Shown here piece after piece: positions 1 to 57,771 of a DNA stretch of 64,000 nucleotides. A model generated the notes under the pieces. That model did not search any database. It saw only the letters and a program-made list of their open reading frames with translations, and had not been told where the DNA came from. The translations under genes were made by a program, and so were the position numbers. How positions within the stretch are numbered: position 1 is the stretch's first letter; every line of letters begins with the position of its first letter. Source of the DNA: Acidobacteriaceae bacterium dw_441 (GTDB taxonomy: Bacteria > Acidobacteriota > Terriglobia > Terriglobales > Acidobacteriaceae); assembly GCA_018449715.1 (NCBI GenBank), contig JAAVVA010000004.1:248001-312000 (forward strand). The letters run 5' to 3'.

Positions 1-2
1 GC

Positions 3-1241
3 CCGCTGACATTCGCATTTAATGGCGGACCTGGATCGGCCACGATCTGGCTGCATATGGGAGCTTTTGGCCCAAAGCGCGTGAAGATGTTGTCAAACGG
101 ATTTATGCCGTCGCCGCCCTTTCAACTGGAAGATAACCAGGACACGTGGCTCGACAAAACAGACCTCGTCTTTATCGATGCGATTGGTACGGGCTATAGT
201 CGTGCTCTGACTCCCGAATCGGGTAAGAAGTATTGGGGCTTGATGGGAGATCTGGAAGCATTCTCTGAGTTCATTCGACTCTACCTGCAGACGAACTCGC
301 GCTGGACCTCGCCGTTATATCTGGCGGGAGAAAGTTATGGAACGACTCGCGCGGCGGGTCTATCCGGAATGCTGATTGATCGAGGGATTGCTCTCAATGG
401 CATTGTTCTTATCTCGACCGTGATGAACTTTCAGACCTCGGGATTTACTATCGGAAACGATCTTCCCTACCTTTGTTTTCTTCCTACATACGCGATGACT
501 GCGGCATATCATAAGAAGCTTTCAAAGGATTACAACGATAGTCCTGAAAAGCTTAAAGCAGATGTCGAAGCCTTTGCGTCTACGGAGTATCCGGTGATTC
601 TGTCGAAGGGAGATTCTCTCACTCCCGCAGAACGGCAGGATGCTATCTCGAAGTTAGCTAAATTTACCGGGCTCACGCCGAAGTTTATCGACCAAAGCAA
701 CCTTCGCGTCGATCTATCTCATTTTGATGCTGAGTTGCTTCGTGATGAGGGGAAAACTGTTGGCAGGCTGGATGGTCGCTTCACCGGCGTGAATAACTCT
801 GGCACGCAACAATCTGCAGACTACGATGCAAGTGAAGCTGCTATTCGCCCTCCTTATACCTCGCTGTTTGGTGATTATGTAGTCAAAGAGCTTGGTTATC
901 AGAGCGATCTTACTTACTGGGTTCTGGGAGGAGGGATTGGACCCTGGGAGTATCCCGGTAATGGACGCTCAGGTTTCCCTGATGTCAGCGATATGATGCG
1001 ACATGCTTTCGCGAAGAATCCTTCTATGCACGTTCTGATCGCCGAGGGATATTATGACTCGGCGACTCCTATGGGAGGCGTGGAATACACGCTGAACCAC
1101 ATGGGACTGAAGCCGGAAAACCACGCCAATATTGTCCGTAAAACCTTTACGGCCGGACACATGATCTATATCGATGAAAAAAGTCTTCACCAGTTCAAAG
1201 GAGATGTGGACCAGTTCTTTGCGGTTACAGCTCCTAAGTAA
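3..1241 (+). CDS. Serine carboxypeptidase-like protein (peptidase S10), 5' end outside window
   Basis: The frame is open from base 3, before the first internal ATG at 57, so this is the C-terminal ~412 residues of a longer protein. Seen: an oxyanion-hole motif NGGPGS right at the edge, the nucleophile motif GESYGTTR, a late Asp in YDSATPMGG and a His in AGHMIYI. Together these are the Ser-Asp-His triad of family S10 alpha/beta-hydrolases. Bacterial members are usually secreted and remove C-terminal residues from peptides; a signal peptide would lie upstream of the window. The gene faces the metal-efflux operon and ends 73 bp from it, with a hairpin between them. Substrate unknown. Confidence 0.88.
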   Translation, partial: PLTFAFNGGPGSATIWLHMGAFGPKRVKMLSNGFMPSPPFQLEDNQDTWLDKTDLVFIDAIGTGYSRALTPESGKKYWGLMGDLEAFSEFIRLYLQTNSRWTSPLYLAGESYGTTRAAGLSGMLIDRGIALNGIVLISTVMNFQTSGFTIGNDLPYLCFLPTYAMTAAYHKKLSKDYNDSPEKLKADVEAFASTEYPVILSKGDSLTPAERQDAISKLAKFTGLTPKFIDQSNLRVDLSHFDAELLRDEGKTVGRLDGRFTGVNNSGTQQSADYDASEAAIRPPYTSLFGDYVVKELGYQSDLTYWVLGGGIGPWEYPGNGRSGFPDVSDMMRHAFAKNPSMHVLIAEGYYDSATPMGGVEYTLNHMGLKPENHANIVRKTFTAGHMIYIDEKSLHQFKGDVDQFFAVTAPK

Positions 1242-1264
1242 TTCGTCCGACAAAGACGTCGGGT

Positions 1265-1302
1265 GTGAATGGGATGAAGCATTTGATCTTCATCCCATTC
1301 AC
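1265..1302. terminator. Bidirectional hairpin between convergent genes
   Basis: A perfect 15-bp inverted repeat (1265-1279 with 1288-1302, 8-base loop) sits between the stop codons of the S10 peptidase and the RND pump. There is no long T run, so it may slow or end transcription from both sides without being a classical intrinsic terminator. Confidence 0.6.
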
Positions 1303-1314
1303 TCATCAGGAGTC

Positions 1315-4300
1315 TTACGAACGAGGTGAGAACGTACGATATAGAAGTGGAAGAACATAGAGCGTGAGGGCTGTTGCGCTGAAGAGCCCTCCAATGACAA
1401 CCGTCGCTAAGGGACGTTGAACCTCTGCTCCTCTTGACTGAGAAAGAGCCATCGGGATGAATCCAAGGCTTGCCACAAGAGCAGTAATGAGTACAGGGCG
1501 AAGGCGGTCAACTGCTCCTTGTCGAATGGCCTCTTCTAAGTCATAACCTTTGAGGCGAAGAGCATTGATGTGGCTGACCATGACAACACCGTTCAAGACA
1601 GCGATTCCAAATAGAGCGATAAAGCCGACGCTCGCGGAGAGATTAAGATTAATTCCTCGCGCCCAGAGTGCGGCGATTCCTCCTACAAGCGCAAGAGGAA
1701 CGATCAGCAGGATCAGAAACATCTGGCGGACGTTGCGGAAGGTGGCATAGAGAAGGCCTGCAATGATCAGGACCGAGACGGGAAATACGATCGCCAGGCG
1801 AGCCTGTGCGCGTTGCTGGTTCTCATACTGCCCGCCCCATTCAAGCCGATATTCTGTGGGCAGAGAGAGCCTCTGGTTGACGGAGCTTTTCGCGTCTTCG
1901 ACAAAGCCGCCAAGATCACGGTCTCTTACGTTTGACATCACCACAACGCGGCGTCGCGCCTGTTCTCGACCGATGATGATTGGTCCGCGCACCTGGCGAA
2001 TGTTTGCGACCTGGTCCAGGCGGACAAGGGCGCCGGAAGGAGTTTTCAGCTGAAGGGAGCGTAACTCATCAGGATTATTGCGAAGCCCTGCGGGAAGTCG
2101 AAGTGCAATCGGGAAACGCTGATCCTCTTCAAACATCTCGGAGATTTGTTTGCTGCCGTAAAGGTTTTCGATGATCTCTTGAATGTCGGATACATTGACG
2201 CCGTAACGCGCGGCCTCAGTGCGGTTGATGGCAATCTGCAACTCCGCCTCTCCGGAAAGGAGCTCCATCTGTGTCTCTGAAGCTCCGTTGACGGAGGCAA
2301 TGATGTCGCGTGCTTCTTTGCCGAGACGTTCCAGCATGTCGAGATCTGGACCGAAGATCTTCAACGCCATATCGCCACGCGTGCCGGTGATGGTTTCGTC
2401 CATGCGCATCTGCATGGGCTGCGTGAACTCGTAGTTCACACCGGGAATCTTCCGCAGTTCAATCTCCATGCGCCTGGCAAGGTCTTCCTTTTTCGCGGGA
2501 CTCTCGTCGCGAGCCTTTGGCGTAAAAGTGACGTAGGAGTCGGATTCATATTCGCCCATTGCCTCGGTCGCAAGGTCCGGGCGTCCCATCTTGGTAACGA
2601 CGCCAGCGACTTCGGGGAAGCTCATAATCGTTCGCTCGATCTCTTTGCCGATCAGGAGGGATTCCGTCAGCGAGATGCCGGGCAGCTTCTTTGAGGTGAT
2701 AACCATGGAGCCTTCATCCAGCGTTGGCATGAACTCCGTACCGATGAACTTCAGGGAGGCCAGCGCAAGAACAACAAGAGTGGCCGCGATGATGTAGGTC
2801 GGTGTGCGATGTTTTTCGGCGGTGATGAGAGTGCGGAGATAACGCGCTTTGAGATGCTCGAACCAGCGTTGCTGAATCTTTTCCTCGTCATGCTTGTTGG
2901 CTACGATACGAGCGCGATGCTTGAGAGCCAGCGTACATAGCGCTGGGACAACAAAGAGCGCGAGAAAAAGCGATCCGATAAGAGCGGAGACAACCGTTAC
3001 CGCCATAGGGCGAAACATGCGGCCTTCCAGGCTTTGCAGCGTGAGGATGGGAAGGTACACCGAGATGATAATCAGGACGCCGAAGATAACAGGCCGGGCG
3101 ACTTCATGAGATGCGTTGCGGATGATATCGAGCAGGCTGGCATCGCGATTCGTGTTGCTCTCAAGCCGATGCATGCAGTTTTCGACCATGACAACGGACC
3201 CATCGACGATAGTTCCAAAATCAATCGCTCCGAGGCTCATCAGGTTCACGGATACGCCGAAGAGATCCATCCCGAGAAAGCCGAAAAGAAGAGAGAGTGG
3301 GATGGTAAACGCTACGACCAGCGCGGCACGCCAGTCTCCCAGAAAGATGAGGAGAATCGCAATGACAAGAGCGGCTGCTTCGATGAGGTTGTGCGCAACG
3401 GTTCGTGTTGTGGAGTTGATGACATCACTCTGGTCATAGAACGGGATGATCTTTGCGCCGTTCGGTAGTTTGAGAGATGCGATTCTATCCTTGATCTCGC
3501 GGATGATTCGCTCGCCATTTTCGCCGCGCAGAATGATGACCATGCCACTGACAGTCTCTCCCTTCGCGTCGTGAAGGACAGCGCCGTGGCGCAATAGTGG
3601 GCGTATGGCGATCGTTGCAACCTGATTCAACAGGACTGGGGTTCCGTTGTAAGAGCTGACGACGATCTCTCCGAGATCGTCTATGTTGTTTGCCCTGCCA
3701 AGGCCACGCACCGTGTACTGCTGCTCCGCGTGCTCGATGTAGCTTCCGCCGAAGTTTGCATTGTTGTTGCTGACGGCACTGACAACATCATGAAGGGAGA
3801 GGTTGTACTGACGCAGCGAAAGAGGATCGACCTCGATGGTGTATTGCCTGGTTTCGCCTCCCCACGAGTTGATCTCGCTTACGCCAGGCACAGAGAGAAG
3901 GTTGTAGCGAATGGTCCAGTCCTGAAGTGTCTTTAGATCCATCAGGCTCATGGAAGGTGACTGTACCGTGTATTGATAGACCTCGCCGAACGCCGTAGAC
4001 ATGGGGTTGATCGTCGGTTGCAAGCCTGAGGGAAGACGGGACTGTACCTGATTCATTCGTTCCGATACGAGTTGGCGAACAAGGTATCGGTCCATAGAGT
4101 CGTCAAAGATGACCGTGACCATCGACAGCTCGAGCTTTGACGTGGAGCGAACGATTTGCAGCTTGGGCATACCCATCAGGGCAGTTTCAATCGGGAAGGT
4201 TACGGCCTGTTCGACCTCCACTGGGGACATGCCCGGACACTGTACGGTTACGACAACCTGGTTGTTGGTGAGATCGGGAAAGGCTTCAAGCGGAAGGTTG

Positions 4301-4392
4301 AACATAACCGCGAGGCCGGTCACGATGATCGCCAGCAGAAGCCCGATCACCAGCCAGCGATTGTCGAGGAGAAAGTTGATAGCGTGTTTCAT
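1315..4392 (-). CDS. czcA: CzcA/CusA-family heavy-metal efflux RND pump
   Basis: Inner-membrane proton-driven pump, 1025 residues, the usual size for heavy-metal-efflux RND proteins. An N-terminal transmembrane segment (about residues 10-30) is followed by a large periplasmic porter loop, a helix bundle, a second loop and a final bundle. The fourth-helix motif DFGTIVDGSVVMVEN carries the DFG...D...E charged set typical of the divalent-cation (Zn/Co/Ni/Cd) subgroup rather than the Cu/Ag subgroup, so export of divalent metals is likeliest (inference). I chose ATG 4392, not the upstream in-frame ATG at 4491. The later start lies 4 bp after the adaptor stop, while the earlier one would overlap the adaptor gene by 95 bp. 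Last gene of the five-gene operon. Confidence 0.93.
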   Translation of the reverse strand: MKHAINFLLDNRWLVIGLLLAIIVTGLAVMFNLPLEAFPDLTNNQVVVTVQCPGMSPVEVEQAVTFPIETALMGMPKLQIVRSTSKLELSMVTVIFDDSMDRYLVRQLVSERMNQVQSRLPSGLQPTINPMSTAFGEVYQYTVQSPSMSLMDLKTLQDWTIRYNLLSVPGVSEINSWGGETRQYTIEVDPLSLRQYNLSLHDVVSAVSNNNANFGGSYIEHAEQQYTVRGLGRANNIDDLGEIVVSSYNGTPVLLNQVATIAIRPLLRHGAVLHDAKGETVSGMVIILRGENGERIIREIKDRIASLKLPNGAKIIPFYDQSDVINSTTRTVAHNLIEAAALVIAILLIFLGDWRAALVVAFTIPLSLLFGFLGMDLFGVSVNLMSLGAIDFGTIVDGSVVMVENCMHRLESNTNRDASLLDIIRNASHEVARPVIFGVLIIISVYLPILTLQSLEGRMFRPMAVTVVSALIGSLFLALFVVPALCTLALKHRARIVANKHDEEKIQQRWFEHLKARYLRTLITAEKHRTPTYIIAATLVVLALASLKFIGTEFMPTLDEGSMVITSKKLPGISLTESLLIGKEIERTIMSFPEVAGVVTKMGRPDLATEAMGEYESDSYVTFTPKARDESPAKKEDLARRMEIELRKIPGVNYEFTQPMQMRMDETITGTRGDMALKIFGPDLDMLERLGKEARDIIASVNGASETQMELLSGEAELQIAINRTEAARYGVNVSDIQEIIENLYGSKQISEMFEEDQRFPIALRLPAGLRNNPDELRSLQLKTPSGALVRLDQVANIRQVRGPIIIGREQARRRVVVMSNVRDRDLGGFVEDAKSSVNQRLSLPTEYRLEWGGQYENQQRAQARLAIVFPVSVLIIAGLLYATFRNVRQMFLILLIVPLALVGGIAALWARGINLNLSASVGFIALFGIAVLNGVVMVSHINALRLKGYDLEEAIRQGAVDRLRPVLITALVASLGFIPMALSQSRGAEVQRPLATVVIGGLFSATALTLYVLPLLYRTFSPRS

Positions 4393-4396
4393 GCGG

Positions 4397-5650
4397 TCAC
4401 TCCTCGCCGGCTGAGCCTTTGAGAAGTTCTCCTTTAACCATGAAGGCGCCGCTGGTGACGACACGATCGCTTGGTCCGAGTCCCTCAACAATCTCGATCA
4501 GGTCGCCGCTTCTGGCTCCTGTCTTTACGGTGGTGGCCTGAAAGTGGGTGCCATCCTGCGTCGTAAATACAACCTGATAACCGTTGACATCCTGTAAAGC
4601 ATCACGCGACACGAAGATCGCATTTCGAGTTCCGGGGCTGGTGATGCTGGCCGAGACGAACATGCCAGGTCGTAACGTTGTTCCGGGATTCGCTACGCTG
4701 ATGCGGACGGGGAGTGTCCGTGTCTGAGGATCGACGACACTGCCAATCATCGTCACTGTGCCGGAGCTCTGGATGGTTGATGGCGCCTGCATGCTGATCG
4801 TGGCTGAGTTGCCTGTGTGGATGAGCGCCACGTCCTTTTCATTGACTGCGGCGTTGACCCAGATGGAGGAAAGATTCGATGTAACGAAGAGCTCATCTCC
4901 TGTTGTCACGACCTGTCCGGGGGTGATGTTGCGAGTAATGACGACGCCGCCGGCGATTGCACGTATCGGCACGAGTTCGCGCTGATAGAGTGTGCCCGGA
5001 ACGAGAGACGTGGGAGAAACCTGAAGTATCTCGGCAAGGTGCTCGCGTTCTGCAATCACCATGGCTTCGGCATCGATGAGATTTTTTTGCGACTGTGCCA
5101 ACTCTTGTTCGACCCGCTGTGTCTCCTCAAGCGAAGCCGCCTGGATGGAGTAGAGCTTTGCGTATCGGTCGCGAGCCTGCGTCGCAAAGCTGACAGCACT
5201 CTTCTGGCGATCGAGGTCAGCATACGCCTGGGTGAGTGCTGCGACTGTTTCGTGCACCGTGTGGCTGTGAATGGTGGCGAGGGTCTGGCCGCTCCGTACG
5301 TTGTCGCCGGGCAAAGCATACACATTCTCAACACGACCGTCGGCAAGCGCGCCTATATGATTGGTGCGCCTTTCGTCCATTGCAACCTGACCGGATACGG
5401 TCAGGGTTTGCGGCATACTCTTCACGGTAGCCTGCATAACCTGGATGCTCGCCCGCTTTTGGTCTTCGAGTGCGATCGTTACTGTTCCGGTGGAGGAAGA
5501 TGTTTTTCCCGTTGCATCCTTTCGCTGCGCTTGGTCCGCATTGGTTGCAGATTCCTGCGTCGTGCCCTGCTTGCTGGAGCCGTTCTCCGAGTGGCAACCG
5601 ATGACGCCGATGAGCACGAGCGTGAAGAATGAACTGCGATTGAAGATCAT
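4397..5650 (-). CDS. czcB: RND periplasmic adaptor, lipoprotein (CzcB/CusB/HlyD type)
   Basis: Membrane-fusion protein of 417 residues linking the inner-membrane pump to the outer-membrane channel. It begins with a lipoprotein signal (lipobox VIGC near residue 19), then a low-complexity Ser/Thr/Gln/Lys linker, a barrel-sandwich (lipoyl-like) half, a coiled-coil hairpin around residues 135-190, the second lipoyl half (VVITRNITPGQVV) and beta-barrel/membrane-proximal domains. No His-rich or Met-rich metal-binding tail is visible. Its ATG overlaps the stop of the upstream TolC-type gene by 4 bp, and the pump gene follows after 4 bp, so the three should be translated together. Confidence 0.92.
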   Translation of the reverse strand: MIFNRSSFFTLVLIGVIGCHSENGSSKQGTTQESATNADQAQRKDATGKTSSSTGTVTIALEDQKRASIQVMQATVKSMPQTLTVSGQVAMDERRTNHIGALADGRVENVYALPGDNVRSGQTLATIHSHTVHETVAALTQAYADLDRQKSAVSFATQARDRYAKLYSIQAASLEETQRVEQELAQSQKNLIDAEAMVIAEREHLAEILQVSPTSLVPGTLYQRELVPIRAIAGGVVITRNITPGQVVTTGDELFVTSNLSSIWVNAAVNEKDVALIHTGNSATISMQAPSTIQSSGTVTMIGSVVDPQTRTLPVRISVANPGTTLRPGMFVSASITSPGTRNAIFVSRDALQDVNGYQVVFTTQDGTHFQATTVKTGARSGDLIEIVEGLGPSDRVVTSGAFMVKGELLKGSAGEE

Positions 5651-6903
5651 GGTTGTTCTCCATATGCCAGTTGTAGCTGAACGATGCTCTGTTGCAGCTG
5701 TGTCATGGCATGAAGAGCGTTTATTTCCACATCGAACTCCGTGCGCTCTGCGTCGATAAATCGCAAAAGGTCCACTCCTCCAATTCGATAAGCTTGTCCA
5801 ACGATGTCGAGATTTTGCTGGGCGCGCTGGCGCATCTCGGGCAAGGTCTTCTCTACAATTTCTTTCTGAGTTTCGTAGCTGGAATATGCCTGCTGCACTT
5901 CGGTTCGCACCTGCTGTTCCAACACGCTCAACTGCGCCTGGGCTGCGGTGACAGAAGCTCGCGCACGCTCGACCTCTCCCTGGTTGCGGTTGCGCAGTGG
6001 AAGAGGAATCTGCAGGCCACCGTAGGCGGTATTGTCCGTCGTATTTCTTTTGTAGCCGCCAAAGAGATCGAGATCGGGGATGGCGTTGGCGTGTTGCAGG
6101 CGAAGGTCGGCCTCTGTCGCCTGTACTGTGGCGCGTGCTGCCATCACGTCGGGTCGTTGGCTTAATACAGTGGCGATGTCTACGGGCTGGATAGGTCTCG
6201 ATGCTTCAATCGGATCGACAAGCTTTACATCGGAGGCCGGGACGCCAATCTGCTTGAAGAGATCCAGTCGCGATTGCACGAGAGTTTGTTCGGAGGTCTT
6301 GAGCGCAATTGCCAGCCGGTCCTGTTCGATCTGCATTCGCAACAGATCGACACCTTTTGCTGCTCCTGCATCGACCCGCTGGTGGTGGTAGCGAACCATC
6401 TCATCGACGGTTCTCATGTCCTGACGTAGAAGCTCGACGATGCGTTGTTGGCTGACAGCGATCCAGTAGGAAAGCGTGACGCGGCCAATGATCTGTCGCG
6501 TCCTCAACGTACGGCTGGCCTCCGTCATCTGCAATTTGGCTTTTGCGAGATCCACGCGCTTCGACCGCTTACCTGCAACCTCCAGGGTTTGTCCGAGGTA
6601 GGCGTAGTCTTCGGTCTGATTCGCGAAATCAAAGGAGTCAGCCCATGGACGCAGGTCTTCAGACTGTAGATAGAGCTTTGGGTTTGGTCCAAGACCAGCC
6701 TGACGAACCATGCCTTGTGCCTGTTGCACCTCTGAATCCAGCACTGTGGCCTGCGGACTATGCAGCGCGCGCTCGACGGCGTCATGAAGCGTGAGCTCTG
6801 GCGGCGCCTGGGCTTTCATGCTGCTGCAGAAGCCCGTAAAGCACAGGAGCATACATGCCATCGCCGCTTTGGATCTACTTTGAATGCTGTTTGTGATGGG
6901 CAC
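5647..6903 (-). CDS. czcC: TolC-family outer-membrane efflux protein (CzcC type)
   Basis: Outer-membrane channel of the tripartite efflux system, 418 residues, with a signal peptide (hydrophobic stretch around residues 15-30) and two long alpha-helical repeats typical of the outer-membrane efflux protein family (for example LTLHDAVERALHSP at the start of the mature protein and a second repeat after about residue 230). Coiled-coil helices rich in Gln/Glu/Arg dominate. The start overlaps the end of the PAP2 gene by 29 bp. A start at residue 15 (MACMLL) would nearly remove that overlap and still leave a signal peptide. Confidence 0.9.
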   Translation of the reverse strand: MPITNSIQSRSKAAMACMLLCFTGFCSSMKAQAPPELTLHDAVERALHSPQATVLDSEVQQAQGMVRQAGLGPNPKLYLQSEDLRPWADSFDFANQTEDYAYLGQTLEVAGKRSKRVDLAKAKLQMTEASRTLRTRQIIGRVTLSYWIAVSQQRIVELLRQDMRTVDEMVRYHHQRVDAGAAKGVDLLRMQIEQDRLAIALKTSEQTLVQSRLDLFKQIGVPASDVKLVDPIEASRPIQPVDIATVLSQRPDVMAARATVQATEADLRLQHANAIPDLDLFGGYKRNTTDNTAYGGLQIPLPLRNRNQGEVERARASVTAAQAQLSVLEQQVRTEVQQAYSSYETQKEIVEKTLPEMRQRAQQNLDIVGQAYRIGGVDLLRFIDAERTEFDVEINALHAMTQLQQSIVQLQLAYGEQP

Positions 6904-7708
6904 GATAGATGTAATGTCCGATAAGCCACCCCGCGGCAGAACCTAGGAGTACATCGGAAGGAAAGTGTTGTTGACTGAGAACTCGTGTAACGCTGAGTCC
7001 GGTAGAGAACGAATAGATCGCGACCTGCTGCCAGGGTTTGCTGTATTCACCGGCCATAACTGCAGCCGAGGACCATGTCACGACAGCGTGCCCTGAGACA
7101 AAAGATGGATCGGACGAGGCATCGCCTGACCAGAAATGTCCTCGGGCATTATTGATTTCAGGGCGCTCGCGCAGAGCTATGTACTTGACTGCTGTGCTGA
7201 GTGCATAAGCATCCAGCATGGCCTCCCCGCTCAGCAATCCAGTCTCCCGTAGCCGGTCGTCTTCCTTGCGGTAACCCATGATAAACATGATGGCTGGAAT
7301 GCCGATCGCGGCATCCCGGATTGCATCCGAAGCCGTGCCGTTGGCAGAGTTGAAGTCAGGATCACTGCTTACAACGTGCCGCATCGTGTGGGTGTCGGTT
7401 GCAAAGGCAAGCGCAGAGGTGCCCGCAAGAGGCAATAACCACTTCATGTCCGACTTCTCTGTTCTTGTCGGAGAGGAGAGAATCTGCCACTCATCGTTCA
7501 GGAAGCGTTGCGGAAGTTTTTTCACCGTGAAAGATTCGTCGCTTGAAGAGATGTCTTCGTTTGAACTCATGCTGGCGGTGCCGGGACTGTCGGGCAGGGA
7601 TGGGGAAGATGCAAGGTTCTGCGCTGATGCAACCCCGAGGCAGCCAAGAGTGAAGATGATTCCGAATGCTCGTAGAGAGCTTCTAGAGAATGCTTCTGTA
7701 ACCGACAT
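6875..7708 (-). CDS. PAP2-superfamily phosphatase, exported
   Basis: 277 residues with an N-terminal signal sequence. The acid-phosphatase/PAP2 triad is present: KYIALRERP (KX6RP), a PS/FVSGH motif (SFVSGHAV) and TRVLSQQHFPSD (the SRX5HX3D position, with Thr for Ser). Family members dephosphorylate lipids such as undecaprenyl pyrophosphate or phosphatidic acid at the outer face of the inner membrane, or act as periplasmic acid phosphatases. Its place inside a metal-efflux operon is unusual. Inorganic phosphate released in the periplasm could help precipitate metals, but that is inference. The start shares one base with the preceding cytochrome stop codon. Confidence 0.88.
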   Translation of the reverse strand: MSVTEAFSRSSLRAFGIIFTLGCLGVASAQNLASSPSLPDSPGTASMSSNEDISSSDESFTVKKLPQRFLNDEWQILSSPTRTEKSDMKWLLPLAGTSALAFATDTHTMRHVVSSDPDFNSANGTASDAIRDAAIGIPAIMFIMGYRKEDDRLRETGLLSGEAMLDAYALSTAVKYIALRERPEINNARGHFWSGDASSDPSFVSGHAVVTWSSAAVMAGEYSKPWQQVAIYSFSTGLSVTRVLSQQHFPSDVLLGSAAGWLIGHYIYRAHHKQHSK

Positions 7709-8235
7709 TATTGTTTATTCCTGAGAACATTTCGGACATCTTCCGTAAGCGGCTCGTTGGCCTTGGAAAGTAGAAGGCTGACCTGCCACATCTGCTGATC
7801 GTTGAGAAGATTGCGATACGACGGCATTCCTGTAAGTCGAATGCCATTCTGTAGCTTCCAGAAGGTTTCGCCGACAGGGTCGTCGCTTACCCCAACAATG
7901 CCTTTACGATGCGATGTCCATAGCTGCGGAGCCTTGGGATACATATTGGTTCCCGCGCCAGATGCTTCTCCTGGAAGGCCGTGGCAGAACGCGCAGTGCT
8001 CCCGATAAAGAAGCGCCCCGGCAAGCTGGTTTTCGGTGGTCAGGCTGATGGGAGAATCCTGTGCCTCACGGTCAATCCGATGATGGAGCGCGGCGCGGAC
8101 GATCGTCTTTTCGAAAGGAAAGGGCGAGTCGACCACGGAGACAGGAGGTCGCCCGTAGTTGATGTAGAGCATCAGAAGGAGAGGCGTAAGCGCCAGGCCG
8201 GCGAGAAACAGGACAAATGCAAGGAGCAGGCGCAT
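7708..8235 (-). CDS. Membrane-anchored c-type cytochrome
   Basis: 175 residues: an N-terminal hydrophobic anchor (LLLAFVLFLAGLALTPLLL), then a single cytochrome c domain with a CAFCH haem motif near residue 86 and a C-terminal Met (LTGMPSYRN) as likely sixth ligand. It is probably an electron carrier tethered on the periplasmic side. First gene of the efflux operon, with its start 114 bp from the divergent response regulator. Small cytochromes of this type recur beside acidobacterial metal-resistance genes, but its electron partner is not apparent here. Confidence 0.88.
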   Translation of the reverse strand: MRLLLAFVLFLAGLALTPLLLMLYINYGRPPVSVVDSPFPFEKTIVRAALHHRIDREAQDSPISLTTENQLAGALLYREHCAFCHGLPGEASGAGTNMYPKAPQLWTSHRKGIVGVSDDPVGETFWKLQNGIRLTGMPSYRNLLNDQQMWQVSLLLSKANEPLTEDVRNVLRNKQ

Positions 8236-8295
8236 CGGGAGGGTATCCTCTGTCTTGCTTATAAAGAGTGAAGATGGAGGACTTTTTTCGCTTGA

Positions 8296-8311
8296 ATGAC
8301 AAATTCGTCAT
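8296..8311. promoter_or_regulatory. Inverted repeat in divergent promoter region
   Basis: ATGAC-(6)-GTCAT lies between the divergent efflux operon (start 8235) and the two-component genes (start 8350). Its position suits a regulator site controlling both directions. No binding data; an 11-bp direct repeat like the one at 12642 was not seen here. Confidence 0.35.
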
Positions 8312-8349
8312 CTTCCATCTGAACGATACTGTGCAAGTAGAATGGCGAC

Positions 8350-9024
8350 ATGCGGCTCCTGGTGATCGAGGACGATTCGGCAATTCGAGGCTTTCTTGCC
8401 AGAAGTCTTCAGGAGGCGGGATATGTGGTCGATGCCGCAGCCTCTGCCCAGGAGGCGGAGGCACTGGTGATGCAGCAGGAGTATGCTGCCATTGTTCTCG
8501 ACCTTGGCCTTCCTGATCGCGACGGCTTTGATGTGATGACGTCCCTGCGCCAACAGGGTGTAAGTGCTCCCATGCTGATCCTGTCCGCGCGGAGATCAGT
8601 CGATGATCGTGTGCGAGGCCTGGAGCAAGGCGGCGACGATTACATGACCAAACCCTTTGCTGTCGCCGAGCTTGCGGCGCGATTACGCAATCTGATTCGC
8701 AGAAACAATCCACCTGTTTTATCGACACAGCTTCGTGTTCTCGATCTTGAGATCGACTTGTTGCGCCGGGAGGCAAAACGCGGTCAGCGTGCGCTTCGAC
8801 TTACCTCGCAGGAGTTCAGCCTGCTGGAGTATCTCTGTCGCAATGCGGGGCGAGTTGTAACGCGCTCCATGATCATGGAACAGGTGTGGAAGATGCGAGC
8901 TCTTCCGGATACGAATGTGGTGGATGTTCATATCTATCGTCTAAGAAGCAAGGTCGATGAAGAAGGAGAACGCCCTCTCATCCGAACACTGCGAGGAGTG
9001 GGTTATGTCCTCAAAGACCGCTGA
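8350..9024 (+). CDS. OmpR-family response regulator
   Basis: 224 residues: receiver domain (about 1-115) with acidic pocket EDD at 7-9, phospho-acceptor Asp51 (VLDLGLPDRDG) and Lys101 (TKPF), then a winged-helix DNA-binding domain (about 128-222) ending in RTLRGVGYVLK. It is divergent from the efflux operon and overlaps the kinase gene by 20 bp, so it is the probable metal-responsive activator of that operon (inference from position, as in CzcR/CusR systems). Confidence 0.93.
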   Translation: MRLLVIEDDSAIRGFLARSLQEAGYVVDAAASAQEAEALVMQQEYAAIVLDLGLPDRDGFDVMTSLRQQGVSAPMLILSARRSVDDRVRGLEQGGDDYMTKPFAVAELAARLRNLIRRNNPPVLSTQLRVLDLEIDLLRREAKRGQRALRLTSQEFSLLEYLCRNAGRVVTRSMIMEQVWKMRALPDTNVVDVHIYRLRSKVDEEGERPLIRTLRGVGYVLKDR

Positions 9025-10450
9025 TCGTCGATTCAGAACAGCGGCCTGGCGCATCTCCTTGTGGGGGGCGCTTACCTTTGCGTTGGGAACGACTCTCATT
9101 TTTGGTTATGTGCAGAGTTATTTCGCGAACGATCTGCAAAAACATACCGACTCCTGGCTCACCGGAGAACTGGCTGTACTTGCGGATGTTGCGCAGAGAA
9201 CGCCGGACGATCAATTGCATGATGCAGTGATTCGCGAGGTGGCGGAGTTGGCAAGTCGAGAAGCCCCACACGCGGACGAGAGTCCGAGCGCAATCGATCG
9301 GACCGTCTTTTTTCTGATGACAGATGCTGATTACAAACCCTTGCTTCATACAGGAGCGGGCCAGCCATATTCCAACATCAGCTCTATTTTGAGAAGCAGG
9401 GTAACAACATCTGTTCCTCGCAATGTCTTGCTTCCGGGATTCGATCGTCCCTTTCGTGTAGCAGAGATGGACCTGTCGAACCGTCAGCACATTTATCTTG
9501 GCTTTTCCACGCTGTATGAAAGCAAAGTCCTTTCAACATTGCGGATTCAGTTCGTTGCAATCTGGTTCGCAATGATTCTTCTGGGCAGTGGAATCCTGTT
9601 TGTTACGACAAGAAGCATGTTGCAACGAGTTCAGGCGATTTCCAATACCGCAGCACAGATCGGAAGAGATAACCTCGCGGCGCGAGTACCTGTCAGCGAG
9701 CGGAACGACGAAATCTCTTATTTGTCCGTCACGTTTAACCAGATGCTTGACCGTATTCAAGCAGCAGTACAGCAGCTGCATACGATGACCGATGCAATCG
9801 CGCATGACCTCCGCAGCCCTATCACTGCAATTCGCGGACGACTCGAGCTTGCGCTGATGGAACCACATGCCAATGCGAAGGAAGAAACGCTTGCGTCTTC
9901 GATTGAAGAGCTGGATCGGCTGACCAGTCTGCTCGATATGTCGCTCGACGTGTCGGAGGCAAATGCAGATGCGTTGAAGCTCCATAAACAGCCCTTCGAG
10001 CTGCAGGAGCTTGTTCGAGATCTGGTGAATCTTTATGAGCCGGTCTTTGCCGAGGCTGGGCTTACGATCTGTCTTAGAAACCAGAATCAAACCTCGATAT
10101 GTGCTGATGCTGCTTTATTGCAGCGTGTCATTTTCAACCTGTTCGACAACGAGGTAAGACATCTTTCTCCGGCCAGAACTGTAACCATTGCGGTGGAGAG
10201 GCGCGACGCCTATGGTGTGCTGACAATCGAAGACGATGGCCCGGGTTTTTCAGAGGAGATACTTCCCGTTCTCTTCGAGCCATATGTGAAGAGGAAGGAC
10301 TCTCCGGGGCATGGACTGGGTCTGGCTTTTGTAGCCGCAATCGTGCGCGCACATCAGGGAAGGGTGACGGCAACGAATAAACCTCAGGGAGGGGCTTCGA
10401 TTGCGATTGAATTGCCTTCTTTCGAAGCTGCTCGCGAGCGATCGACCTGA
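9005..10450 (+). CDS. Sensor histidine kinase (partner of the 8350 regulator)
   Basis: 481 residues from ATG 9005, which lies inside the end of the regulator gene. The longer reading from 8957 would overlap by 68 bp and lacks a membrane-first N-terminus. Two transmembrane helices (about 15-35 and 180-200) flank a periplasmic sensor loop. A HAMP domain follows, then the His box AHDLRSPITAIR, the N box (NLFDNEVRHLSP) and G boxes (DDGPGF, GHGLGLAFV). All catalytic motifs are intact. It converges on the broken kinase at 10454-11894. Confidence 0.92.
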   Translation: MSSKTADRRFRTAAWRISLWGALTFALGTTLIFGYVQSYFANDLQKHTDSWLTGELAVLADVAQRTPDDQLHDAVIREVAELASREAPHADESPSAIDRTVFFLMTDADYKPLLHTGAGQPYSNISSILRSRVTTSVPRNVLLPGFDRPFRVAEMDLSNRQHIYLGFSTLYESKVLSTLRIQFVAIWFAMILLGSGILFVTTRSMLQRVQAISNTAAQIGRDNLAARVPVSERNDEISYLSVTFNQMLDRIQAAVQQLHTMTDAIAHDLRSPITAIRGRLELALMEPHANAKEETLASSIEELDRLTSLLDMSLDVSEANADALKLHKQPFELQELVRDLVNLYEPVFAEAGLTICLRNQNQTSICADAALLQRVIFNLFDNEVRHLSPARTVTIAVERRDAYGVLTIEDDGPGFSEEILPVLFEPYVKRKDSPGHGLGLAFVAAIVRAHQGRVTATNKPQGGASIAIELPSFEAARERST

Positions 10451-10453
10451 GGT

Positions 10454-11894
10454 TATGACTCTGCGATGGAGAGAGAGGATTCGGAAAAAATGGAAGCTCG
10501 GCAGACTTCGACAAGGACACGGTAAAGGTGCTTCCATCGCCGGGTATCGAGTCTACTGTAATGATGGCATGGTGCGCTTGAATGATCCATTGTGCAATCG
10601 CGAGTCCCAGGCCACTGCTGCCCTCATCCTGAGTTCTCGAGCGATCGACGCGATAGAAGCGGTCGAATATCTTCGGCAACGCATCCTCCGAGATGCCGAT
10701 GCCGTCATCGCTGACGCGCAGATAAATGTTGTGTGCGTCGGTTGAGAGTGAGAGGGAGATGCCCCCTTCGGAAGGGGTGTATTTGATCGCATTGTCGACG
10801 AGGATGCCAGTCATGCGGCGAAGAAGAGACGCGTCTCCATATGTCCATACCTCGGGATCAATCTGTGTCCGAAGCGTCTGCTGTTTCAGGTTCGCTTTCG
10901 CCTGCAGGTTTTCTGCGACCTCGGTTGCGATCTGCGATAGCGATACGGCCTGCATATCGCAGTCCTGTTCCATGATGTCTGCTCGTGTAATCGTCAAAAG
11001 ATCCTGTAGCAGGCCCGAGGTCGCTTCGTACTCTGAAGAGATGGTGCGCAACGCGGCTCTGTACTCATCTTCTGTGCGCTGACGGAGCAGGGCCAGCGAA
11101 GCGGTCGTAAGCATCACCGTGATGGTCGTTCTCAGGTCATGGGAGATGTCTTCCGTAAATTGTGTCAGTTTGTTGACCGCGGTATGAAGACGTTCGAGCA
11201 ACTCGTTCCATGTCTCAGCCAGCACCTGTAACTCATCAGAAGTATCGGGCACAGGTAGTCTTCGTTGTAGATCATGGATGCCGATACTGCGTGCTTCTGC
11301 TGTCATCTCGCGAACGGGCCTGAGTGCGCGATCGCTTAAAAGGAAACCTCCTGCTGCGGAGGCAAGAAGAAGAAGAGGACAGAAAAGAAGGTACGAGTTA
11401 CGCACGCTTTCAAGAATCTCCGTGTGTTCATCGATCTTTCCCGAAAGCGATAACCTGACATTTCGGTCGCCGAGCGCAACTACATGATCGAGCGTCCGCA
11501 CCGTATGTCCGTTGCGTTTAACCAATCCAAAACAACGTTCGATACATGATTTATTCGGTCACGGAATTTTATATTCCGTAACGCCGGATGAGGAGTAAAT
11601 CAGAGTTCCATCAAGCTCATACATCTGGACGATATCTGTGGGGGCAATAGCAGTGCTCAGGCGATCCAGTTTCTCTGTCAGCGTCAGAGTCTGATCATGC
11701 GCTGGCCATGTGTCAAGAAAGCGGAGAGAGCGATCTTCGCGCGCCTGCATGGTTCCTTCACGCGAGGTCTCGAGCGCATAGTTCATGTACACATAGGAGA
11801 AGCAGCCAAGGCAGACCATCGAGAGCAGAGCGAAGATGATGTAGAGCGTGGCGAGTTTGAGGCGAAGTGAGCGGAGGCGCAGCGCGAACTTCAT
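10454..11894 (-). pseudogene. Broken sensor histidine kinase (CusS/heavy-metal sensor type)
   Basis: Two pieces lie in one frame. Residues 1-111 (from ATG 11894, with the first membrane helix and sensor region) end at an in-frame TGA at 11559-11561. The rest resumes directly with the second membrane helix, HAMP, His box SHDLRTTITVML, N box and G boxes (DDGIGISED, GSSGLGLAIAQ). The natural C-terminus GSTFTVSLS is reached near 10505. The frame has lost its stop and stays open to 10134 in low-complexity sequence antisense to the neighbouring kinase. Another frame has TAA close to 10454, suggesting a 1-base indel there. ATG 11894 still overlaps the regulator's stop (ATGA). An ORF from 11525 to 10134 remains but lacks the sensor half. 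Confidence 0.8.
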
Positions 11895-12564
11895 CGGGGA
11901 GAGACCAGCATGTATCCGAGAGAACGAACGGTTCGAATGATGCTCTCCTCTCCCTTGATGTCGATCTTTGAGCGCAGACTGTGGATGTAGAAATCGACGC
12001 TGCCGTCGCTGACGTCAGTATCAAAGGCCATCCCGCCTCGCGCAGTTGGTTGCGAGTAACGACCTTGTTGGAGCGGCGCACCAGCAGCTTCAGCAGCGTG
12101 TACTCTTTTTTTGTCAAAGTAATATTTCACTCGTGGCGACTGACAATGTAATTGTCTGTGTCGAGATTGAGGTCGCCCGCAGAGATAATGCGTGATTGCA
12201 GTGTGGGGCGACGGCGTCCTATAGCGCGAATGCGGGCAATAAAGACCTGGATCTGAAATGGCTTTGTGAGATAGTCGTCCGCTCCAAGATTTAATCCGTT
12301 CACGATGTCGGGAATTGTGTCCTTCGCGGTGAGCATAAGGATAGGGACTACACACTTGGCGGCGCGGACCTCTTTCAGAATAGAGAAGCCATCAAGACCG
12401 GGAAGCATGACGTCGAGAACAGCTACGTGAAACGGTGCACCAAGTAAAAGATCGCGGCCCTCATCGCCACGTTCCGCAATGGTGATGTGGTGACCATCTT
12501 CTATAAGGCTCTGGCGCAGTATGTTGCAGATGCGTTTGTTGTCTTCAGCAACAAGAATATTCAT
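11891..12564 (-). pseudogene. Broken OmpR-family response regulator
   Basis: The receiver is complete (ED at 7-8, VLDVMLPGLDG, TKPF) for about 145 codons. An in-frame TGA follows at 12127-12129, between VSRHE and NITLTKKEYTLL. The same frame continues into the winged helix up to NQLREA, then a 1-base indel near 12030 moves the remainder (FDTDVSDGSVDFYIHSLRSK to GYMLVSPR) into another frame, which ends at 11891. One nonsense plus one frameshift separate the phosphorylation domain from the DNA-binding domain. The final TGA overlaps the kinase ATG, which confirms the ancestral frame. Without the winged helix, the surviving receiver could not bind DNA. Confidence 0.85.
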
Positions 12565-12641
12565 AACTTATCTATTGATTACACCCTCCACGCAGATTTG
12601 CAGACAGCCATTTTGTGAATTCCCTGTAGCAGTCCGCCCCT

Positions 12642-12659
12642 TTCTAAGACTGTTCTAAG
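12642..12659. promoter_or_regulatory. 11-bp-period direct repeat, probable response-regulator operator
   Basis: TTCTAAG at 12642-12648 and again at 12653-12659, one helical turn apart, lies between the divergent dead regulator (start 12564) and the small secreted-protein gene (start 12748). OmpR-family winged helices bind tandem half-sites with this spacing, so it is a good candidate for the ancestral site of the broken regulator. Confidence 0.5.
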
Positions 12660-12747
12660 GGAGCCCCTTTTGAATCGGAGCATTGGGAAAACAGGGTGAT
12701 CTCAAGTTGCGGAGAACTCATGCCGCATCGGTTCCAGGAGATATCAA

Positions 12748-13250
12748 ATGTTTGTCTTTACGCGCAAAACAACGCTTTCCGTTTCCCTGATCTTTGGCCT
12801 GATGCCCGCTGTTGTTAATGCCCAGTCTCAGCACCCAGGCACATACATGCATGTTCATGCTCCTTTTGCGCAGTCGCTGGTAATGAAGGTTAAGGCCGCT
12901 CATAACGACGACCTGGTCAAGCTGGGGTTGCACGCGGTTCCTCCAGGAGAGAGCGATAACGTGATCGTCGCAAACATCACTCCTTCGAAGAATGGGAAGA
13001 AATCTTCCGCGGTCGATATGGAGAAGCTTGCTAACGGAAAGCCCGTTGCAGTGCGGCTTGATAAGGAGAAGTGCTTCGATCTTCTTATTCCGATCACAGA
13101 CGCGAAGGGCGCGATATCAGCGGTGGCTTTGTCGTGATGGAGGTTCCTTATACCAAGGCTTCCTCGGAAGAAGAAGCGTTGCGGATTGGTGTCGCTGTTC
13201 GTGACGACATGCAGCGGCAGATTCCCAGCAAGGAAGCTCTCTACAAGTAA
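12748..13250 (+). pseudogene. Small secreted protein of unknown function, frameshifted
   Basis: Starts at ATG 12748 behind a good ribosome site (CAGGAG). It encodes a signal peptide (to about residue 26, VNAQSQ) and about 95 further residues. The frame then hits TGA at 13135-13137. A second frame opens exactly at 13113 and reads DISGGFVVMEVPYTK through to SKEALYK and a TAA at 13248-13250, 34 bp before the TonB receptor. A one-base deletion near 13112 joins the two into a ~167-residue protein. I do not recognise the family. Position suggests a periplasmic partner of the adjacent receptor. Confidence 0.7.
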
Positions 13251-13283
13251 GAGCGGCATAAGCCGACGAAAGGATGGAATGCC

Positions 13284-14090
13284 GTGAAACGAATCACGCC
13301 GTTGTTCTTGCTGCTGTTGTCTGTGTTGCGGCTTAGCGCGCAGACAGATCGAGCAATGCTGACAGGAACGATCTCTGATGCCTCAGGCGCTCGTGTGGCC
13401 GGTGCGAAGATCGTAGTTACTTCAATCAGTACAGATACTCGTCGCGAGACTGAGACGAATAAGGCTGGAGTCTATACTGTCACCTCTCTTTCGACCGGAA
13501 TTTATAGCGTTTCGATTGAAGCCGCAGGGTTTGCTTCCTCCAGGGTGGAGAACCTTACGCTGGATGTGGGACAGGTTCGTACGCTCGACCGGAAGCTGGC
13601 CGTTGCGGGAGGATCGGAGCAGATCGAGGTCAATCCCGAGTCGGGTCTATCGAAGTCATCCGCGGAGATTGGAGGTGTTGTTTATGGCAAGCAGGCGACG
13701 GAGATTCCTCTAAACGGACGTAACTATATCGGCTTGGTCTCGCTTGCGCCCGGTGTGATCGATTCCGGCACGGGAACGCAGCAGGATATGCGCTTCGCTG
13801 GTCTCTCTGCCGAAGACAACACGTGGCATCTCGATGGCGTGGATAACTCCGGCATCAATCACCAGTACCAGAAGGTCGATCTTCATCTTCAGGTTTAGAC
13901 GGAGGCAATTGCCGAGTTTCGTGCCAACGGTGTTGCTTACAGCGCCGACCAGGGAGGCACGGCGGGAGGCCAGGTCGAAGTGGTATCGAAGACGGGCAGC
14001 GACCAGTTTCACGGGGTGCTGCGTTCTTGTCTGGACCGGAACGAGTCTTGCGCTCAGCAGGTCTCGCCTTTGGAAGGCAGCGCGACACCT
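13284..14090 (+). pseudogene. Remnant of TonB-dependent receptor with carboxypeptidase-regulatory domain
   Basis: GTG start, signal peptide (LLLLSVLRLSAQ), then the carboxypeptidase-regulatory-like domain (about 22-105) and the start of the plug domain (IPLNGRNYIGLVSLAPGV, DGVDNSGINHQ). TAG at 13896-13898 breaks the frame just after LHLQV. Plug sequence resumes in the same frame (EAIAEFRANGVAYSADQGG, GGQVEVVSKTGSDQFHG) and homology is lost near 14020. Acidobacterial receptors of this class usually exceed 1000 residues, so about three quarters, including the whole beta barrel, is missing. The remnant ends just before the terminator of the opposing cold-shock gene. Confidence 0.85.
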
Positions 14091-14106
14091 GTCTTTGGGG
14101 CAACAG

Positions 14107-14139
14107 AAAAAGGCCTCTCTATAAATAGAGAGGCCTTTT
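14107..14139 (-). terminator. Intrinsic terminator of the cold-shock gene
   Basis: Stem AGAGAGGCCTTTT pairs with AAAAGGCCTCTCT across a 6-base loop and is followed on the minus strand by a T run. Plus-strand T residues also follow, so it can work both ways. Confidence 0.85.
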
Positions 14140-14157
14140 GTATTTCAGAACTGATTC

Positions 14158-14358
14158 TTAGAGAACCTGAACGTTCTCAGCCTGCCAGCCCTTGGGTCCC
14201 TTGACCACGTTGAACTGAACAGCCTGGCCTTCCTGCAGCGAGCGGAAGCCGTTGCTCTGAATCGCGGAGTAATGAACGAAAACATCCTCTCCGCTGTTGC
14301 GGCTCAGAAAGCCAAAACCCTTCGCATCGTTGAACCACTTAACAATTCCCTGTTCCAT
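14158..14358 (-). CDS. cspA: Cold-shock protein (CspA family)
   Basis: 66 residues, a single cold-shock domain. RNP1 KGFGFLS and RNP2 DVFVHYSAI are intact, with the usual start [17 protein letters not shown]. It binds single-stranded RNA and DNA and acts as an RNA chaperone in cold or stationary-phase adaptation. Single-gene unit with its own terminator at 14107-14139. The ~140-bp stretch before it shows nothing definite. Confidence 0.96.
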
Positions 14359-54507: not shown

Positions 54508-56199
54508 TTGAATACACGACACACACTCTCCGCGTTAGCCGTGGCCGTCTTCGCGATGGCCACCTCCCTGCCGGCGCAGGAAGCCGGCTTCCACAGCGCT
54601 CCGGCCTCGGCTGCAGCGACGGCGAATCCGCACACGACCCCGGACGACGTCAAAGCCGGACAGGGCGTATACCAGCAGCGGTGCGCGATGTGCCACGGCG
54701 CGACGGCCCAGGGAGCGGGAAACATTCCGGCTCTGGCCTCCGGTCCGGCTCAGTCGGCCAAGCCCGGCGAGATCATGTGGTACATCACGCAGGGCGACCT
54801 GAGCAACGGTATGCCCTCGTGGGCCTCGCTCCCCGAGGAGCAGCGCTGGCAGGTGGTCAGCTATATCAAGTCGCTGGGCAGCGGCGGCGCGGCGGCCCCC
54901 ACTGCAGCTCCGGCTGCTTCCTCGACCAACACTGGCGCCGGTGGGCGCGGTGTTCAAAGCTCGGAGCTGACGGCGAAGCCGTTCGACGCTCCCGCTCCAA
55001 CGCCTCCGTTCACCGACTTCCGCTACGAGAAGCCGGGCCAGACCCGCAAGGTCACCGTGGCCGATCTTCCGAAGCCCTATGCGACCGAGTCGGCGGGCAA
55101 CGGCCCGAAGATCATTCCGCGGCCCGAGGGTGCGTGGCCGAAGGTTCCCGAGGGCTTCAAGGTCAACATCTATGCGGAGGGCTTCGATACGCCGCGCATG
55201 ATCCGCACCGCACCGAACGGCGATGCCTTCTTCGTCGAGAACGTGACGGGTGAGATCCACATCCTGCGCGGCCTGACCGCCGACGGCAAGGCGCAGACGC
55301 ACAGCGTCTTCGCGAAGGGGCTGAACCGCCCGTTCGGCATCGCCTTCTATCCGCAGGGACCGAATCCGCAGTGGGTCTACATCGGCAATCTGGACTCCGT
55401 CGTTCGCTTCCCCTACAAGAACGGCGACCTCGTCGCCACGGGCGCTTCCGAGCATATCGCCGACATCCCCGGCGGCAAGGGACACATCACCCGCGACGTC
55501 CGCTTCTCGCTCGACGGCAAGAAGATGTTCGTCTCGGTCGGATCGGGCTCGAACGTGGATGATCCGGACACCTCGCCCGCGGAGAAGAACCGCGCCGACG
55601 TGCTGGAGTTCAACCCGGACGGCAGCGGGATGCGCGTGTATGCCTACGGCATCCGCAACTGCGTGGGCGAGGCGATTCACCCGAAGACGGGCGAGCTGTG
55701 GTGCTCGGTCAACGAGCGCGACGCCCTCGGCGACAACCTCGTGCCGGACTACATCACGCACGTGCAGGAGGGCGGTTTCTACGGCTGGCCGTGGTGGTAC
55801 ATGGGCGACCACCAGGACCCGCGCCACGCGGGCAAGCATCCTGAGCTGAAGGACAAGGCCATTGTGCCGGACGTCCTGCTGAATCCCCACAACGCCTCGC
55901 TGGGCATCCTGTTTTACGAGGGCAAGCAGTTTCCGGCGGAGTACCAGGGCGAGCTGTTCGCCGCCGAGCATGGCTCGTGGAACCGCTCGGCGCGCGTGGG
56001 CTATGAGCTGATCCGGGTTCCGATGCTTCCGACGGGCCGGGCCAAGGGCGAGTACCAGGACTTCATGACGGGCTTCGTGCTTCCGAGCGGCGACGTGTGG
56101 GGACGCCCGGTAGCGGTGGCCACGGCCACCGACGGCTCGCTGCTGGTGACCGACGACGCGGGCAAGCTGGTCTGGCGCATCAGCTACACCGGGAAGTAA
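54508..56199 (+). CDS. Cytochrome c-sugar dehydrogenase (GSDH/PQQ-type) fusion, exported
   Basis: 563 residues from a TTG start behind AAGAGGGA. Signal peptide, then a cytochrome c domain (CAMCHGA near residue 58, Met ligand NGMPSWAS), a Pro/Ala linker (about 130-185), and a six-bladed propeller of the glucose/sorbosone dehydrogenase family (GFKVNIYAEGFDTPRM, YAYGIRNCVGEAIHPKTGEL, FAAEHGSWNR). The propeller would oxidise an aldose or similar sugar with PQQ and pass electrons to the fused haem. Sugar unknown. It ends in a strong terminator. Confidence 0.9.
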   Translation: MNTRHTLSALAVAVFAMATSLPAQEAGFHSAPASAAATANPHTTPDDVKAGQGVYQQRCAMCHGATAQGAGNIPALASGPAQSAKPGEIMWYITQGDLSNGMPSWASLPEEQRWQVVSYIKSLGSGGAAAPTAAPAASSTNTGAGGRGVQSSELTAKPFDAPAPTPPFTDFRYEKPGQTRKVTVADLPKPYATESAGNGPKIIPRPEGAWPKVPEGFKVNIYAEGFDTPRMIRTAPNGDAFFVENVTGEIHILRGLTADGKAQTHSVFAKGLNRPFGIAFYPQGPNPQWVYIGNLDSVVRFPYKNGDLVATGASEHIADIPGGKGHITRDVRFSLDGKKMFVSVGSGSNVDDPDTSPAEKNRADVLEFNPDGSGMRVYAYGIRNCVGEAIHPKTGELWCSVNERDALGDNLVPDYITHVQEGGFYGWPWWYMGDHQDPRHAGKHPELKDKAIVPDVLLNPHNASLGILFYEGKQFPAEYQGELFAAEHGSWNRSARVGYELIRVPMLPTGRAKGEYQDFMTGFVLPSGDVWGRPVAVATATDGSLLVTDDAGKLVWRISYTGK

Positions 56200-56225
56200 C
56201 CGTCGTATCGGCAAGACAGAGAATT

Positions 56226-56265
56226 AAAGCGGGGAGGATGAAAATCCTCCCCGCTTTTCTTTTTG
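56226..56265 (+). terminator. Intrinsic terminator after the sugar dehydrogenase
   Basis: AAAGCGGGGAGGA pairs with TCCTCCCCGCTTT around a 6-base loop, followed by TCTTTTT. A strong GC-rich stem. Confidence 0.93.
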
Positions 56266-56282
56266 TGCGATCACGGATGTTT

Positions 56283-56423
56283 GGGTGCCCCATCCTTCGC
56301 GGCTTTATCGCGAAGGGTGGGATGAATGCTGTTTGAACCGGCATCGAGCCTCTTCATCCCGAGGCTGGAATTCTTCATCCCACCCTTCCCCACTATGAAA
56401 CCGTCAGGAAGGATGGGGCACCC
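56283..56423. repeat. BIME-like double-hairpin repeat, copy 8
   Basis: Terminal GGGTGCCCCATCCTT / AAGGATGGGGCACCC. The left hairpin closes through CCTTCGCG / CGCGAAGG. It lies 18 bp after the terminator and 51 bp before the YraN gene end. Confidence 0.85.
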
Positions 56424-56473
56424 GGTCATTTGTGGCGCTACCGGCTGCGCCCAGATGGATGGAGGCGATGCAC

Positions 56474-57688: not shown

Positions 57689-57695
57689 GGGATGT

Positions 57696-57771
<76 letters not shown>

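Follow-up and report, generated by a model that had tools for sequence, protein, structure and literature searches.

Why are four adjacent genes disabled in a chromosomal region whose other genes are open? The question is raised by a locus in the genome of Acidobacteriaceae bacterium dw_441 (4.92 Mb, 10 contigs, 99.99% complete), within the 64,000-nucleotide stretch analyzed here as a whole (the window, positions 248001-312000 of contig C6). A response regulator (RR), a sensor histidine kinase (HK), a small secreted protein (SSP) and a TonB receptor are broken side by side. They are probably the remains of a four-gene Acidobacteriaceae module at the right edge of a stretch of about 24.5 kb that appears to have been acquired horizontally, the module being cut on entry or soon after and decaying thereafter. 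The dead copy thus seems for the most part an ordinary failed gene transfer, one that reveals a little-studied nutrient system.

Lesions of the four-gene module

The four disabled genes have the following positions in the window:

11894-12564, minus strand: pseudogene of the OmpR-type response regulator, with an in-frame stop at 12127 and a frameshift near 12030
10480-11894, minus strand: pseudogene of the sensor histidine kinase, with an in-frame stop at 11559 and a frame that overruns the conserved end
12748-13250, plus strand: pseudogene of the small secreted protein, with a frameshift near 13107; intact relatives have about 167 amino acids and a GAF-like predicted fold
13284-14050, plus strand: pseudogene of the TonB receptor, comprising CarboxypepD_reg and plug domains, with an in-frame stop at 13896 and no barrel

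Each gene was aligned against 19-20 intact relatives, a comparison with related genomes that the original prediction had called for, and the inactivating lesions it had claimed in all four genes are confirmed as real. The RR frame opens at 12564, meets the stop at 12127, resumes unchanged and then shifts near 12030, the conserved C-terminus lying in a different frame down to 11894. The HK frame is likewise interrupted at 11559 and resumes, then overruns the last conserved residues (about 10480) as far as 10134, antisense to a live kinase. This had been taken for a stop codon lost near 10454; the overrun itself stands, but a DNA junction explains it equally well, and the two cannot be told apart because the tails of intact kinases vary. 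In the SSP the frame changes near 13107, and the family profile recognizes both halves.

The damage to the receptor is of a different order. Besides a stop codon at 13896-13898, it has lost its 3′ end, as was proposed: in local alignments with six intact receptors, homology ends at 14014 (three receptors), 13990, 14021 and 14049. The intact receptor of Terriglobus albidus has 997 residues and its barrel domain (PF25183) begins at residue 234, so what is left of the dead receptor is signal peptide, CarboxypepD_reg domain and plug, and with the 3′ end the whole β-barrel is gone. The missing barrel was not found elsewhere in the genome, where the best match (42% identity) is a paralogue, and no convincing remnant of the distal receptor occurs in 14015-14157. 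A genome-wide search with one receptor-barrel query gives 148 matches, many of them pieces, which suggests that many TonB receptors of this kind are encoded; two genomic receptor-barrel matches, at C9:6421 and C1:758758, contain in-frame stops.

The main alternative named was clustered sequencing error; here it is considered together with assembly error, either of which would hide a working locus. There is only one assembly, and a flank gene at C6:222.2-223.4 kb also carries a frame change, both of which would favor error. Yet three of the five internal lesions are stops that leave the reading frame unchanged, no base run in the frameshift regions of the RR and the SSP exceeds 3, and a missing barrel of about 740 residues cannot come from base-calling. 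All five internal lesions fall within 3.64 kb of the 24.55-kb stretch (about 7e-5 under uniform placement), whose 13 other genes are all open, and the locus lies inside a contig of 504 kb in a genome that is all but complete. Sequencing error is therefore unlikely as the cause of the lesions, and a working locus obscured by clustered error is so improbable that it deserves almost no weight. As a flank control, 18 reading frames of the congener G234 with a match of at least 55% identity were compared: 13 align in one open frame, and of the other five, four overlap an open frame of at least 236 amino acids. The fifth is the flank gene at C6:222237-223356, which shows a frame change and stops in comparison with its G234 counterpart, either a real lesion or an antisense artefact.

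What we take to be the receiver, kinase and plug motifs of the dead genes are well kept, in agreement with the original prediction, and the receiver domain is complete (Pfam E 4.8e-24). Remaining pieces, such as the receiver, or the plug with part of the SSP, might on this account keep a function as regulators or decoys, and the perfect state of the repeat between RR and SSP (described below) is consistent with this. However, the receiver is severed from its DNA-binding part, both the kinase and the SSP are split, the receptor has no barrel, and recent decay accounts for the preservation. Retained function appears very unlikely.

A low-GC stretch between lipA and cspA

The setting of the module, missed by the first reading of the sequence, is a foreign-looking stretch bordered by what we take, from their sequences, to be a lipA-type gene on the left and a cspA-type gene on the right:

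C6:237604-262157 (window part 1-14157): stretch of about 24.5 kb of low guanine-cytosine (GC) content between lipA and cspA, with the dead module as its right edge
14051-14157, no strand assigned: junction stretch without convincing receptor remnant, with a hairpin adjoining cspA; congener homology begins at 14155-14158
14158-14358, minus strand: presumed cspA-type cold-shock gene, the first native gene to the right of the stretch

GC content is 0.502-0.553 in six consecutive 4-kb blocks from C6:238001; elsewhere in the 194 kb examined, the blocks are at 0.55-0.68. Colinearity with G234 stops at C6:237600, at the end of the lipA-type gene, and resumes at 262157, at the end of the cspA-type gene; homology breaks off sharply on both sides in comparison with six congeners (G234, G233, G226, G223, G219, and G208). 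Where both genes appear among the matches listed, the gap between them measures 537 bp in G234, 0.7-1.1 kb in G219, G226, G223 and G208, and 24.55 kb here. In G233 it holds 7.3 kb of unrelated genes (L137 2000-9275, on G233 contig C2), so that the genus may have taken up insertions in the lipA-cspA spacer more than once. In G227 lipA has the dUTPase-side match as its immediate neighbor and no cspA match occurs at that place; in G232 the lipA-side and cspA-side regions are far apart. Because the site varies and most compared congeners have a short gap, the 24.5 kb are most simply explained as an addition in this lineage. Two features expected of a failed transfer are present: the frames are disrupted relative to intact homologues, and both composition and position are foreign.

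A plausible course of events can be proposed. The segment would have entered between lipA and cspA, and the receptor would have been cut then or soon after, leaving the regulator with nothing to import. The RR, HK and SSP would then have lost constraint and gathered stops and frameshifts, and the live genes for efflux and peptidases would have been kept in the stretch.

The original prediction saw instead a complete system that had lost its use. The four genes did once belong to a module, but loss of use is one option only, because the module is the outermost part of a foreign-looking stretch and its receptor is truncated at that edge; the position of the cut is explained no less well by truncation at entry or soon after. 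In its fuller form this alternative holds that the module, arrived or native, was functional until it fell out of use, after which its genes decayed one by one and a later deletion reaching cspA removed the barrel. The same lesions would result, and the order of events is not readable from one genome. Moreover, an intact copy exists in strain KBS 146 (genome G232, locus L106), which shares the genus group (g1) of the source genome with Granulicella aggregans M8UP14, so the genus can use the module. That copy lies at another place, however (C1:492 kb, with the cspA-side match of KBS 146 at C1:2.75 Mb), and the receptor cut coincides with the low-GC boundary here, a weak argument since a deletion up to cspA gives the same coincidence. 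As a whole, this alternative seems rather unlikely.

The decay looks recent, at least roughly, as had been proposed. Three nonsense changes translate into about 90 (19-264) substitutions in 3,300 nucleotides since constraint was lost, or 2.7% of sites (0.6-8.0%), where 3.3% of random single changes make a stop. The DNA identity of the compared copies is about 70-75%, and synonymous sites are judged to be near saturation. Among columns invariant in the family the window breaks 5 of 237, compared with 0-27 of 264 in intact rows and with 2 of 239 (KBS 146) and 1 of 238 (T. albidus) in the nearest ones; the excess over the nearest congener copy is not significant (Fisher p 0.28).

This last result is one of several that weigh against acquisition followed by truncation and decay. 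The full module may have arrived and its barrel may have been deleted later, up to cspA. The closest intact proteins are 74-85% identical, with no near donor. No integrase is found among the 13 open genes of the stretch (Pfam matches) and no tRNA near its right edge, the sole tRNA in a scan of the window lying at 57.7 kb. Nor does any exact direct repeat of at least 13 bp join the left and right edges, so repeats were rejected as island ends; one 13-bp inverted match was seen. With these points taken into account, transfer with a cut at or near entry is still regarded as the probable history of the locus.

The live genes that accompany the dead module in the window are:

1315-8235, minus strand: HME-RND-like efflux genes (RND, adaptor, OEP), a PAP2 protein and a cytochrome c
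8350-10450, plus strand: RR (8350-9024) and HK (8957-10450), convergent with the dead kinase

From left to right, the stretch holds a live cluster (C6:237855-249241, ending at window position 1241) of an RR, a CarboxypepD_reg TonB receptor, two S9 peptidases, an HK and an S10 carboxypeptidase, followed by the RND efflux, PAP2 and cytochrome c genes, the RR/HK pair and the dead module, beyond which cspA begins. All 13 open genes have Pfam matches, which in most cases span the greater part of the model; for the left-hand receptor the PF25183 match is split in two, and the frame used for scanning the left-hand RR was truncated. The neighbors said to be intact (RND pump, adaptor, OEP, PAP2, cytochrome c, RR, and HK) do match most of each Pfam model. 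The description of a dead locus next to a live one holds insofar as the RR/HK pair at 8350-10450 and the left cluster are live, but these are different systems rather than an intact copy, because the SSP profile finds nothing in the source genome beyond the two broken pieces. The left cluster looks like an inducible peptide-scavenging locus on the foreign stretch.

The closest RND genes are those of G211 and G224 (68-70% DNA identity). A donor-like pairing of efflux genes and module in a congener was considered and rejected: G211 has no SSP match, and the intact SSP of G224 is on another contig than its RND gene. In Acidicapsa (L024) RND genes do stand beside the SSP, but on the other side. 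Elsewhere in the window, GC skew is highest in the last 8 kb (0.14-0.23 at 56000-64000).

Intact modules in relatives and a predicted operator

The DNA of the dead locus matches 9 of 200 family genomes at E <= 1e-20 and the SSP profile 50 of 398 at E <= 1e-8, the source genome being counted both times; the family is patchy. With profiles of the four genes, all four are found at 19 of 26 loci, representing 17 distinct other genomes. HK and RR are divergent from SSP and receptor in 15 of these 17, with or without genes between RR and SSP, the loci L023 and L024 holding all four genes in a layout that is not divergent. The four genes thus constitute one module, as first supposed. In a four-gene tree, the window groups with T. 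albidus, three further genomes of the genus group of T. albidus, and KBS 146, with support of 1.0 for the group of the window and 0.34 for the order inside it. Since this group mixes two genera, it fits transfer and names no donor.

An apparent second decayed remnant of SSP and receptor occurs at L130 9606-10275 (G183 C4:691.6-692.3 kb). Its SSP part is recognized by the family profile between positions 53 and 170 (E 7.5e-58) and contains one in-frame stop; the receptor fragment has 120 amino acids. The same genome carries an intact module on C3, which suggests that the module has decayed more than once.

The SSPs of T. albidus and one other genome match no Pfam family at E <= 1, that of T. 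albidus matches no NCBIfam family, and neither the SSP nor a 332-residue neighbor protein (discussed below) has a sequence match in the PDB. A structure model built from 15 sequences (mean pLDDT 86) has as its best structural match the GAF domain 4g3w (Z 11.7, with 116 residues aligned at a root-mean-square deviation of 2.5; all following rows at Z <= 9.7), and further matches include IclR effector, Roadblock and chemoreceptor-sensor domains. Foldseek ranks IclR effector domains at the top, at TM-scores below 0.5. The fold class is probably GAF-like, and the model suggests a ligand-binding role in the periplasm. SSP-like domains also occur within secreted-looking proteins of about 490-620 amino acids with YncE/WD40-like β-propellers beside modules (L021 2966-4621, L123 3785-5275, and others).

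The spacer between the two divergent halves of the module contains a candidate operator:

12642-12659, plus strand: predicted regulator-binding site, a 7-bp direct repeat with a 4-bp spacer (11-bp period) and identical halves

It lies 78 bp from the RR start and 89 bp from the SSP start. This repeat, with its 11-bp period, aligns in all 10 RR/SSP spacers compared, a subset drawn from the nearer modules, and the exact TCTAAG core is present in the spacers of L018, L019, L022, L023, L106, and L125. Copies with one mismatch occur before the PafA-like gene in L119 and in L025; copies with two mismatches precede the second receptor in L026 and the SSP in L021. Over 19 module loci, there are 7 matches with at most one mismatch and 14 with at most two, vs. 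0.15 and 1.2 in mononucleotide shuffles, so some of the two-mismatch copies may be due to chance. The 19 module loci counted for phosphoesterase genes in the next section leave out L123, L127 and L130, which lack a complete module, L125 and L105, which lie on short contigs, and L114 and L117, whose genomes are already represented by L121 and L124. L128 and L021 are among the 19, with no complete module in the DNA covered at either.

In the source genome the exact core has a single site, at the dead locus. Among 398 family genomes it is found at 34 sites, of which 9, this one included, are in module spacers, and these spacers add up to a few kb in a search that covered well over a billion bases. 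A reversed control pattern looks commoner overall than the core (the counts were not summed), so position rather than frequency carries the signal of the repeat. A second exact repeat in G117 (L150 1501; C1:639827) lies about 400 bp upstream of a gene for 339 amino acids with the look of a YncE-type propeller.

Phosphoesterase neighbors and comparison with known systems

What the intact modules do may be read from their surroundings. Phosphoesterase-type genes occur at 15 of the 19 module loci (367 kb) vs. none of 13 control loci (260 kb); counted by genome, they accompany the module in 14 of 18, L021 and L022 overlapping in one genome. Four types are represented: PafA-like (five loci), calcineurin-like, PF04185 with a β-propeller, and a family of 332 amino acids without Pfam match that is read as a phosphoesterase from its sequence. 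Leaving out this last family does not change the count of 15 of 19, because each locus concerned also has another type. A YncE-like propeller is present in 12 of the 19 loci.

These neighbors make it likely that the module senses and imports compounds derived from phosphate esters. In intact copies, the kinase would read a periplasmic signal, probably phosphate-ester-linked and perhaps bound by the GAF-like SSP; the regulator would bind the repeat of 11-bp period and turn on the SSP, the receptor and, in some genomes, a neighboring phosphatase. A broader proposal can be put forward tentatively, with somewhat less than even confidence. Intact copies may represent an undescribed organophosphate-scavenging system of the Acidobacteriaceae, in which the secreted GAF-like protein feeds the two-component pair and a Pho-box-like repeat controls SSP, receptor and phosphatases, as a counterpart without SusD to the phosphate utilization systems (PUS) of Bacteroidetes; the dead copy would then have been trimmed at the edge of an island with its operator intact.

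Other observations count against the functional part of the explanation. The core is weaker in L020, L024 and L026, the form in L020 being degenerate, and at two mismatches no repeat is found near the more distant modules of L118, L120, L121, L122, L124, L126, L128, and L129. The controls for phosphoesterase genes come from just three congeneric genomes; one of them, L028, overlaps the dead module, and no gene of those phosphoesterase families stands beside the dead copy in this overlap.

The proteins scored against curated families stay below the cut-offs. The intact regulator of L018 scores 176.3 bits (PhoB cut-off, TIGR02154, 296.2) and its kinase 268 bits (CztS/SilS/CopS cut-off, TIGR01386, 292.55), and the T. 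albidus regulator stays below the curated cut-offs for PhoB and for CztR/SilR/CopR. The PafA-like protein of L119 reaches 467.1 bits, below the NF042991 cut-off of 650. As in OmpR/PhoB-family systems, the regulator combines a receiver with a winged-helix domain. The Pho box consists of 7-bp direct repeats at an 11-bp period, a geometry that the module repeat shares; its sequence is different.

The nearest functional parallel is offered by the PUS loci, whose features the module shares in part. For PusCD and PUS of Bacteroidetes, Lidbury et al. (2020, PMC8115612) describe a TonB-dependent receptor locus beside phosphomono- and diesterases. Similarly, intact modules lie near phosphoesterase-type genes, some of them PafA-like, so that a receptor with co-located phosphatases is found at intact loci. 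In contrast to PUS, the module belongs to Acidobacteriota, has its own two-component pair and includes a secreted GAF-like protein. No SusD-like gene was seen among the four module genes, the other neighbors having been partly scanned. A limited literature search (one open-access library) found no description of the intact module, which is provisionally considered undescribed. Acidobacteriaceae are a common group in soil, and the comparison reveals in them a conserved module for sensing and uptake, together with a secreted protein family that has no name yet and an operator predicted from the repeat.

The dead copy itself is probably a further example of failed transfer, shown with a mapped boundary: a transferred segment appears to have kept some genes and shed the module cut at its edge. 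Failed transfer is an established source of bacterial pseudogenes according to Liu et al. (2004, PMC522871), who found a putative transfer origin to be 2.3 times likelier for pseudogenes than for genes and who place histidine kinase-like ATPase among the top pseudogene families. Like the pseudogenes described there, the dead copy combines disabled genes with atypical GC content. What differs here is that the decay takes in all four genes of a module at a mapped boundary, which cuts one of them.

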